A stretch of DNA of 37,204 nucleotides, taken from the IMG/VR virus record IMGVR_UViG_3300024933_000034, positions 1-37,204 of that record. One strand, given 5' to 3'. Below, piece after piece: positions 1-3,445 of this stretch. The translations under genes and the position numbers were made by a program. How positions within the stretch are numbered: position 1 is the stretch's first letter; every line of letters starts with the position of its first letter. The notes under the pieces were generated by a model. That model worked only from the letters and a program-made list of their open reading frames with translations. It had not been told where the DNA came from and made no database searches. The DNA is from a virus.

Positions 1-462
1 GGCCCGGCCCGTTGCCGCCGCGACGATGCCACGCACCGACCCGCCAGCAAAGGGATCAAGCACCAGGTGGCCGGGTGCCGAGAACCAGCGGTAGACCAGC
101 TCGCACAGCACCGGGTCAAACACGCTGGTGCCCTGCTGCTTGATCTTGTCGGGATGGGCCTGGGCGAATTCGGCCCAGGTGGCCTTGCGGCCGAGGATGG
201 CCTCGAAGGCGTTCTTGGCGGCATAGGTAGCGGGCGGCTGTGCGGACGTGGCAAACAGGAGCTGGTCGCAGCGGCCCAGCTCGGACTGGATGCCCGTGGC
301 AAGCCAGGCGGTTTTGCGGTCGCGCCACCAGCCCGTGCGGGCGTCTAGCAGCGAGAACGGCACCGAGAGATAGCGCTCAGCCAGGGAGGGATTGGGCCCG
401 CCGCTGGGGATCGTTTCGGCGCTGGGCGGAGTGAAGGTCGGGAAAGGTTGTCGCGTGGTCAT
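1..462 (-). CDS. DNA methyltransferase, C-terminus cut by window edge
   Basis: This gene reads leftward from an ATG at 462 and stays open for 154 codons to the edge, so the C-terminal part is missing. The last visible residues contain DPFAGGSVRG, a good motif I (AdoMet-binding FxGxG type) of amino-methyltransferases. The catalytic D/N-P-P-Y/W motif and target-recognition region are not visible and should lie beyond the edge. It overlaps the 3' end of com by 86 nt and takes the place of mom, the last late gene of Mu. The likely role is to modify phage DNA against host restriction. Its start codon sits at the foot of a strong hairpin (462-491), so translation is probably controlled. The enzyme class is inferred from one motif and from context. 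Confidence 0.85.
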   Translation of the reverse strand, partial: MTTRQPFPTFTPPSAETIPSGGPNPSLAERYLSVPFSLLDARTGWWRDRKTAWLATGIQSELGRCDQLLFATSAQPPATYAAKNAFEAILGRKATWAEFAQAHPDKIKQQGTSVFDPVLCELVYRWFSAPGHLVLDPFAGGSVRGIVAAATGRA

Positions 463-628
463 TCGAGCGTTTCATAGGTTCGACGCTCGAAGGGCGTTCT
501 TGGGAAGAGGCGCTCGGGGCGCTCTGGAACTGGTTCAACGCCCCGCAGCGGGGGCATTTGATGGACAGGGCGGTGAAGATGCCCTCTCCAAGTTTGCGGC
601 GGCAGGAGCCGCATCTGATTTCATTCAT
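377..628 (-). CDS. com: Com family zinc-finger translational regulator
   Basis: This is an 83-residue protein with two CxxC knuckles, Cys6/Cys9 in IRCGSC and Cys25/Cys28 in IKCPRCG. That matches the Mu Com fold in size, spacing and position near the N-terminus. I chose the ATG at 628 because it gives the typical Com start (MNEIRC); an upstream in-frame ATG near 719 would add 31 residues. In Mu, Com is an RNA-binding protein needed to translate mom. Here its 3' end overlaps the start of a methyltransferase, whose start codon is locked in a hairpin, so Com should be its activator. The basic, Arg-rich tail (residues 50-83) is partly constrained by overlap with the methyltransferase frame. About 160 bp upstream of it holds no convincing gene. 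Confidence 0.85.
   Translation of the reverse strand: MNEIRCGSCRRKLGEGIFTALSIKCPRCGALNQFQSAPSASSQERPSSVEPMKRSNDHATTFPDLHSAQRRNDPQRRAQSLPG
462..491 (-). promoter_or_regulatory. Hairpin closing the methyltransferase start codon (com-mom-like control)
   Basis: The arms 483-491 and 462-470 are perfect 9-bp complements (TTCGAGCGT and ACGCTCGAA in the mRNA) around a 12-nt loop. The A of the methyltransferase ATG is the last base of the 3' arm, so the stem covers the whole ribosome-binding region; no clear Shine-Dalgarno lies outside it. In Mu, Com protein opens a comparable inhibitory stem at the mom start. The same function here is inferred. Confidence 0.7.
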
Positions 629-1876: not shown

Positions 1877-3445
1877 TCAGGCACGGATGTAGGTCTTGAA
1901 CGGCAACCCCGCTGGAGCCGCGATGGTGGGCACAGGGAACTCGGTGCGCGGGTCGTAGGCGTAGGCGTCGCGGTAGACACGGACGTAGGGCGTTGCAGTC
2001 ACTGCGATGCCCAGTAAGTAGTTCAGTTTGGTGGCGCCCTTGAAGTAGGCCAGGCCTCTGGCAGTGCCAGGGGTCGGAGAAAGGTCCGGGTCCTTCGTGA
2101 ACACATCCGCTGCGCGCTTGTAGATCGTGACAAAAGGCGCCGTGTTGTGCAACACCGCCAGGTAGGTGCCATCGGGGCTGAATGCTGCCCCGTAGGCCTG
2201 GCCTGCAGGAAGCACGGCCGGGTTTGCCAGCTTGGTGAACACATCACCCGCGCGCTTGTAGATCGTGACGAAAGGGGTCGTCACATGCGCCACCGCCAGG
2301 TAGGTACCGTCGGGGCTGAATGAAAGACCTGCGGCCTGGCCGACCGGCAACGTTGACGGGTTGGTGAGCTTGGTGAAGACATCCCCCGCGCGCTTGTAGA
2401 TCGTCACGAAGGGTGTCACATCGTGCGCTACCGCCAGGTAGGTGCCGTCGGCGCTGAATGCTACGCCGTAGGCCTGCCCGGTCGGCAGAACTGACGGGTT
2501 TGCCAGCTTGGTGAACACATCCCCGGCTCGTTTGTAGATCGTCACGAAAGGCGTGGTTCCATGCGCCACCGCCAGGTAGGCGCCATCAGCGCTGAATGCT
2601 ACGTCCAAGGCCGCGCCCGTTGGCAGCGAGGCCGGGTCTGCCAACTTGGTGAACACATCCCCCGCACGCTTGTAGACCGTCACAAATGGCGCCAATGCAT
2701 GTGCCACTGCCAAGTAGGTGCCATCGGCGCTGAAAGCGGCTCCGTAGGCCGCCTCCACAGGCAGTGTGGCTGGGTTTGGCAGCTTGGTGAACACATCGCC
2801 TGAACGCTTGTAGATGGTGACGTAGGGCGCCGTGTTGTGCGTCACCGCCATGTAGGTGCCATCGGGACTGAACGCCACGTCGTAGGCCAAGCCTGCAGGC
2901 GGTTCTGCGGGATCGGGCAGCACATGCGTAGGCGGCTCTGTGACTTCTTGTCCAAAAGACGACATCACTGCTCCCAGCGCCGGGTACACAGCCTTGGAGT
3001 ACACCGCGCCGTCTGCCAGCAGCCATTGCGGCGCGGCCACGGGCCGCGCCGTGGTCAGCACATCGCCTGGACTGAAGTAGCCTTCCGGCGCTACCCAATC
3101 AGCCGTTACGCCAGGGCGGCTCAGCGTCACATCGGCCAGATCATTCAGCAACACCCAGAAGCGGCCCCCGTCAAAAACGCCAGCGCCCTTCAGCAATTCG
3201 CCTGAGAGATCGCTCCACTTGCCCGCAAAGTTGGTCAAGACGGATGCCGCAGTGGCTGCAGTGGAGGCGGCGGCGGCCTCAACCGCGTTTTGATAGGTGG
3301 CTTGCGCAAGCGCGCTTACGCCGGGGGCGAGTTTGTTCTTCTCCCAGGCGTAGAACGCTTCCTGCTGATCGTCAAAGATCGGCTCATCCAGCGCAGATTC
3401 AGGAACTGCTGGGCCGCTTTCAATGGGGGTAATAGGGATTGGCAT
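1877..3445 (-). CDS. Tail fibre with collar-like segment and seven-blade beta-propeller
   Basis: This 522-residue protein is the probable receptor-binding fibre. Residues 1-75 are an Ala-rich, helical tail-attachment region. Residues 125-165 resemble a phage tail-collar segment (WLLADGAVYSKAVYPALGAVM-like pattern). Residues 176-451 are six repeats of exactly 46 residues, each with FSxDGTYLAVAH, PFVTIYKR and GDVFTK. Residues 452-494 form a seventh, divergent copy, followed by a short C-terminal cap. Seven WD-like units predict one closed seven-bladed propeller. The next gene is a fibre chaperone. Propeller loops commonly bind sugars or proteins, so the domain likely recognises the host surface. 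The host receptor cannot be read from sequence. Confidence 0.8.
   Translation of the reverse strand: MPIPITPIESGPAVPESALDEPIFDDQQEAFYAWEKNKLAPGVSALAQATYQNAVEAAAASTAATAASVLTNFAGKWSDLSGELLKGAGVFDGGRFWVLLNDLADVTLSRPGVTADWVAPEGYFSPGDVLTTARPVAAPQWLLADGAVYSKAVYPALGAVMSSFGQEVTEPPTHVLPDPAEPPAGLAYDVAFSPDGTYMAVTHNTAPYVTIYKRSGDVFTKLPNPATLPVEAAYGAAFSADGTYLAVAHALAPFVTVYKRAGDVFTKLADPASLPTGAALDVAFSADGAYLAVAHGTTPFVTIYKRAGDVFTKLANPSVLPTGQAYGVAFSADGTYLAVAHDVTPFVTIYKRAGDVFTKLTNPSTLPVGQAAGLSFSPDGTYLAVAHVTTPFVTIYKRAGDVFTKLANPAVLPAGQAYGAAFSPDGTYLAVLHNTAPFVTIYKRAADVFTKDPDLSPTPGTARGLAYFKGATKLNYLLGIAVTATPYVRVYRDAYAYDPRTEFPVPTIAAPAGLPFKTYIRA
1964..2920 (-). repeat. Tandem 138-bp coding repeats (propeller blades)
   Basis: Six tandem 138-bp units fill 2093-2920 and a diverged seventh covers about 1964-2092. 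Each encodes one propeller blade. Long stretches around the YKRAGDVFTK codons are nearly identical between units, so in-register recombination could add or remove whole blades. Confidence 0.85.

Follow-up and report, generated by a model that had tools for sequence, protein, structure and literature searches.

Tandem Com-box RNA hairpins at the start of a phage DNA methyltransferase gene and their probable role in Com-gated translation

In a computational analysis of a Mu-like transposable phage, two tandem RNA hairpins (Com boxes A and B) were found in the last part of a com gene, just upstream of a stem at the start codon of an overlapping DNA methyltransferase gene. Most of the relatives surveyed appear to carry such a conserved pair of Com sites, no matter which DNA-modifying enzyme is encoded next, and the arrangement is probably best explained as a translational switch through which Com gates the synthesis of the phage methyltransferase. 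The boxes tie Com to the methyltransferase RNA much better than does the start-codon stem, on which the original prediction was centered. The boxes were not named there; the span to which it referred (positions 460 to 628) includes these more conserved elements and omits the end of com (460-377).

The window, i.e. the whole stretch of DNA analyzed, is a 37.2-kb record of the IMG/VR collection (37,204 nucleotides). Its plus strand encodes a transposase (PHROG 310) as well as a transposition protein (PHROG 296); the genes for terminase, portal, minor head and tape-measure proteins are located on the minus strand. The product of the com ORF (628-377) also matches PHROG 6417 ('translational regulator') and shares 41% identity over 29 amino acids with Com of Mu. 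The overlap of a Com-type zinc protein with a methyltransferase, noted in the original prediction, was confirmed; both ORFs are on the minus strand and share 86 nt, and the tail codons of com hold both Com boxes as well as the start-codon stem (Table 1). A Com zinc-ribbon gene lying upstream of its target and overlapping it is the arrangement of a Mu-type com module. Since the target is a PF01555-type methyltransferase and not Mom (PF25680), the locus is not a com-mom operon proper. Motif I (LDPFAGG) of the methyltransferase is found near the break at the window end. Two relatives (L012 and L015; loci are given here by L numbers) are 337 amino acids long, and PF01555 was matched in L012. In full-length relatives the SAM motif I LDPFAGG precedes the catalytic motif IV SCPPY, which is visible in the relatives only because the window end cuts the gene. 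No match to the window methyltransferase was obtained in 399 genomes of the same order, and no Shine-Dalgarno sequence is evident ahead of its ATG at position 462. A single GATC (position 828) is present in the 300 nt upstream of com compared to four in Mu, and a cluster of the Dam/OxyR type is absent. Across the whole window (1-37204) GATC is over-represented (163 versus 110 expected, sd 8.6, a number reached in no shuffle). A tail-collar protein (1877-3445, minus strand) contains several tandem beta-propeller-like repeats (PD40/WD40 matches), and its gene consists of near-repeated DNA with a GATC about every 138 nt.

Table 1. Features of the com-methyltransferase region in the window.
Feature	Position	Strand	Remarks
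com	377..628	-	83-aa CxxC...CxxC zinc-ribbon protein; PF10122 Zn_ribbon_Com, E=2.2e-11; left window edge
Com box A hairpin GAGCGCCCCGAGCGCC	509..524	-	GA-GCGC-C-CC-GA-GCGC-C; exact SELEX bipartite motif GAGNNCC-N2-GAGNNCC
Com box B hairpin GAACGCCCTTCGAGCGTC	482..499	-	GA-ACGC-C-CTTC-GA-GCGT-C; counterpart of GAAUGCCUGCGAGCAUC of Mu
Start-codon stem, 5' arm TTCGAGCGT	483..491	-	resembles a translation-inhibition structure
Start-codon stem, 3' arm ACGCTCGAA	462..470	-	paired up to the A of ATG 462-460
Methyltransferase start codon ATG	460..462	-	in-frame stop TGA at 474-472
DNA methyltransferase, 5' part	1..462	-	154 aa, cut by window end

Both boxes have the form GA-N4-C-N2-4-GA-N4'-C. According to a SELEX study (PMC6483171), RNAs selected in vitro from random RNA and bound by Com of Haemophilus sputorum are hairpins of the type GAGNNCC-N2-3-GAGNNCC, and Com binds a 19-mer of Mu (GAAUGCCUGCGAGCAUCCC). 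The selected RNAs have the same hairpin geometry as the natural boxes A and B. Box A is the sole match to the SELEX motif in the 37 kb of the window, where 0.19 are expected. Box B follows the geometry of the Mu box, its loop being one base longer, and is retained in 8/8 members of the window clade, which comprises the window and seven relatives with the same Com-methyltransferase pair. As in Mu-type modules, the target start is preceded by a Com-box hairpin with a 4-bp stem and the loop C-N-GA.

The generality of the boxes was assessed with Com-type loci gathered in viral and genome collections; of 195 distinct ones, 179 had strong Com scores. The genomes were scanned with a narrower Com alignment, an alignment including Mu being too diverse. 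At least one perfect box hairpin follows the zinc ribbon in 168 of these 179 loci (94%, compared to 18% of shuffles), and at least two are found in 101 (2% of shuffles). For 129 representatives with less than 80% identity, com tails were recoded synonymously with their own codon usage. One or more boxes were observed in 93% of the natural tails and 10% of the recoded ones, two boxes in 50% and 0.5%, and the exact SELEX motif in 46% and 1.7%, respectively. Elsewhere in the same loci, the motif was matched only twice in 513 kb. Given the synonymous recoding and the SELEX-motif counts, the idea that protein-coding constraint produced the boxes was rejected. A codon-phase test was uninformative because the phase of box A is nearly fixed.

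Covariation was analyzed in an ungapped alignment of 44 sequences, which were picked by box spacing, flanking GA/GC and loop letters and not by pairing. Paired cells amounted to 98.9% (85.2% shuffled), and double changes occurred in seven of the eight box pairs (47 cells versus 6.7). The covariation score of 0.427 (0.153 shuffled) was reached by 0/500 shuffles, and sliding the pairing partners abolished the signal. RNAalifold returned the same two hairpins. A covariance model trained on this alignment detected 84 of the 96 Com loci held out from it (85 matches, the extra one being a weak second match in L214) and gave a single match in the window (482-524, E=2.6e-4). Of 61 control loci, most of them relatives of the methyltransferase that lack Com, the model matched just one, which the box pattern itself had retrieved; two boxes were found in none of 25 Com-less relatives. 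Rfam returned no match for the start region of the window (up to E=1) and, at the gathering threshold, none for Mu or seven other Com loci.

The start codon lies at the foot of a perfect 9-bp stem, exactly as the original prediction described it: the arms 491-483 and 470-462 enclose a 12-nt loop. The window contains 11 perfect 9-bp stems when loops of 3-20 nt are allowed, compared to 2-8 in six Markov-1 random sequences; the record is G+C-rich and such stems are not rare there. The local fold around the stem has a z of -1.64. These counts leave room for a chance origin of the stem, so the case is not rested on it; it is the place and the conservation of the stem, not its mere occurrence, that go beyond chance. 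The stem is predicted to occlude the target start, as in Mu-type modules, and its core is conserved in the clade. The energy needed to open the methyltransferase start exceeds that of upstream shuffles by 2.4 sd in the window and by 1.3-3.0 sd in the six clade relatives listed. Conservation in relatives, which the original prediction had called for, was found in part: a core of 5-7 bp is largely kept, in which the inner GAGC/GCUC pairs remain intact in 8/8, 8/8, 7/8 (plus one G-U) and 7/8 members, whereas the two outer pairs have mostly disappeared. The compensatory changes that it had proposed to look for in related Com-methyltransferase pairs are present in the start stem of L015 and L033 (C-G to U-A). 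The stem is thus real and partly conserved within one clade, but not as a 9-bp unit.

The sequence GAGCGU constitutes both the 3' half of box B and part of the 5' arm of the start-codon stem, and because it is common to both, box B and the stem are mutually exclusive. In the absence of Com, the 3' half of box B would pair next to the AUG, and ribosomes would be excluded from a start with no evident Shine-Dalgarno sequence. Com bound to boxes A and B, as its behavior toward Mu and SELEX RNAs suggests, would hold GAGCGU in box B and free the AUG; the direction of the effect, activation, is that known for Mu. The original prediction had Com melting the stem directly, but Com probably holds box B instead. 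The predicted energies are -12.0 kcal/mol for the stem and -3.2 kcal/mol for box B alone, and as the stem is thermodynamically favored, Com probably acts on fresh RNA or behind ribosomes reading com. On fresh RNA, box B can form before the 3' arm of the stem becomes available, and Com might bind as the boxes emerge behind RNA polymerase or behind the com-reading ribosome. By extension from Mu and the SELEX study, the methyltransferase would be made late and in step with Com, and would mark the phage DNA.

The strand shared by box B and the stem is also present in a sister clade with ParB-methyltransferases (L005, L062, L163 and L325). In L163, a C to U exchange in this strand is matched both in the box (ACGC to ACAC) and in the stem (GACGC to GACAC). 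L124 and L191, the latter a true Mom locus, have the same layout. Among 100 loci, a shared strand of at least 6 bp was counted in 10, while 5.4 are expected from cross-locus pairing, so the layout is not general, and the shared-strand switch was rejected as a general rule. A universal start-codon stem was likewise rejected, start sequestration being clade-specific; over all Com loci it is moderate (mean z 0.81, 28% above 1.5). In a D12 clade of 17 sequences, both boxes lie inside a different, outer stem (CAGCU with AGCUG) that also covers the Shine-Dalgarno region; five pairs of this stem are intact in 17/17 sequences, with double changes in L117 and L109.

In a scan of 92 proteins encoded downstream of Com, with classes that can overlap, 56 were D12 adenine methyltransferases and 30 were N6/N4 methylases, followed by six C5 methylases, three Mom proteins and three ABC-GNAT fusions. 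The boxes are found in Mu-like (Mu, B3) as well as P2-like phages (AP3, Mana), and their position between com and these very different enzymes is fixed. The occurrence of the same boxes ahead of such different classes indicates that the control element either predates the enzyme or moves more readily than it does. It is conceivable, though tentative, that the tandem Com-box RNA is a portable module with which many phages place unrelated DNA-modifying enzymes under one small zinc protein, with each lineage building a different off-state. These would be the start-codon stem in the window clade, the ParB-methyltransferase clade and a Mom, the outer stem over the Shine-Dalgarno sequence in the D12 clade, and a transcription terminator in the Com-like loci L060, L074, L078 and L087.

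Several further loci were observed in the survey. Mom genes behind Com and two boxes are encoded in L191 (2161-2892, PF25680) and L210 (149-877); in L191, where translation starts at TTG, the stem over the start spans about 12 bp, and this locus is a cleaner Mu-like case than Mu. At nine loci (L003:3001-4455, L083, L149, L170, L173, L178, L198, L216 and L218), Com is followed by a small ORF and an ABC-ATPase/GNAT fusion of approximately 375 amino acids, with no methyltransferase. A formyltransferase-like gene (HPSLLPRHRGRD) is present in several of them, and these loci possibly represent an undescribed DNA-modification operon under Com boxes. A Com-like zinc-ribbon gene followed by the same box array was found in L087 (2254-2330), L078 (947-1010), L074 (2899-2980) and L060 (7594-7690; coordinates with the locus read on the box-pattern strand). 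There, a terminator-like hairpin that ends in T-runs takes its 5' arm from the box strand (e.g. AACGCCATGAGCGTC...ATGGCGTTTTT), which suggests termination control in other phages. Box-pattern matches with terminator-like hairpins also occur in L043, L047, L058 and L067, where Com was not detected. In L314 (1629-1660, reverse strand), a hairpin GAGCGCCATGA...TCATGGCGCTTTTT spans the 3' arm of box B and the ATG of the downstream gene, and could be a start-hiding stem and a terminator at once.

Plain translational coupling, in which ribosomes finishing or passing com translate the methyltransferase, the stem is incidental and Com is inactive at the start, would account for the 86-nt overlap without a clear Shine-Dalgarno sequence. 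It would also fit the 11 perfect stems in the window and the loss of the outer pairs of the start stem. Ribosomes translating com traverse the stem, and their passage might by itself unfold it or couple translation, with no need for Com binding. Coupling is opposed, however, by a conserved, covarying Com-box pair that is independent of the protein sequence, by the core stem retained in the clade and by the change on three strands in L163, and it is considered unlikely.

Alternatively, the boxes might let Com control its own message by repression, stability or termination, the methyltransferase following passively. Their location inside com codons and the boxes in terminator-like hairpins behind the Com-like genes of L060, L074, L078 and L087 are in line with this. 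Against it stand the activation by Mu Com of the translation of the downstream gene (PMC6483171), the start-linked stems covarying in two methyltransferase clades and the finding that a methyltransferase or Mom is almost always next after Com, which together make autoregulation distinctly improbable. Very little weight is given to the boxes being conserved DNA or coding features, for instance a recombination site for enzyme swaps or a conserved Com tail, and not an RNA switch. Boxes fixed between com and varied enzymes could aid cassette exchange, but this reading is opposed by the pair-keeping double changes with loop-specific conservation, by the identity with the SELEX motif and by the synonymous recoding null.

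With Com-gated translation as the preferred reading, the com-mom system of Mu, long seen as a curiosity of one phage, is an instance of an RNA logic that now appears widespread and sequence-defined. The element could explain how potentially harmful methyltransferases stay silent in lysogens and are turned on by Com. Two hairpins with the loop C-N2-4-GA predict Com targets from sequence, and the natural boxes supply ligands for the unsolved Com-RNA structure. The proposed fold switch is open to compensatory mutation in dozens of phages.

Methyltransferases of this kind from Mu-like prophages were reportedly tested by Drozdz et al. in 2012, a study cited in PMC5399793. That a methyltransferase can replace Mom behind Com is thus no novelty at the level of annotation and, reportedly, of enzymology; the replacement is annotated in the phage records of B3 and AP3 and, as Com and a methyltransferase in place of Mom, in KS5 (PMC3091744). 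The idea of com-mom logic with a methyltransferase in the place of mom is supported, chiefly by the Com boxes, but the swap itself is not new. In B3, KS5, AP3, Mana and prophages with enzymes of the Hia5/Hin1523 type, Com is followed by an overlapping DNA methyltransferase as in the window; no RNA element or hairpin control was described for these pairs in the literature searched. Judging by its full-length relatives, the window enzyme probably belongs to a different subfamily, with motif I before motif IV (CPPY). The conserved tandem Com-box element is undescribed in the literature searched, which covered little of the 1990s work on Mu Com. This search, thin on older Mu literature, turned up no study in which conserved Com boxes are connected with methyltransferases, and no account of the agreement between boxes and SELEX RNAs or of the strand shared by box and stem. 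Natural tandem boxes and methyltransferases are not mentioned in the accessible part of the SELEX study (PMC6483171).

A single Com box and a start stem are already known for Mu. The com-mom operon of Mu (L020; PMC6483171) has in common with the window a Com zinc-ribbon gene that overlaps its downstream neighbor, a Com-box hairpin with the loop C-N3-GA and a start-hiding stem. The window differs in encoding a methyltransferase instead of Mom and in missing the GATC cluster upstream of com. The single box of Mu lies next to the stem, with about one base in common, whereas two boxes are present in the window and the whole 3' arm of box B is common to the start stem.
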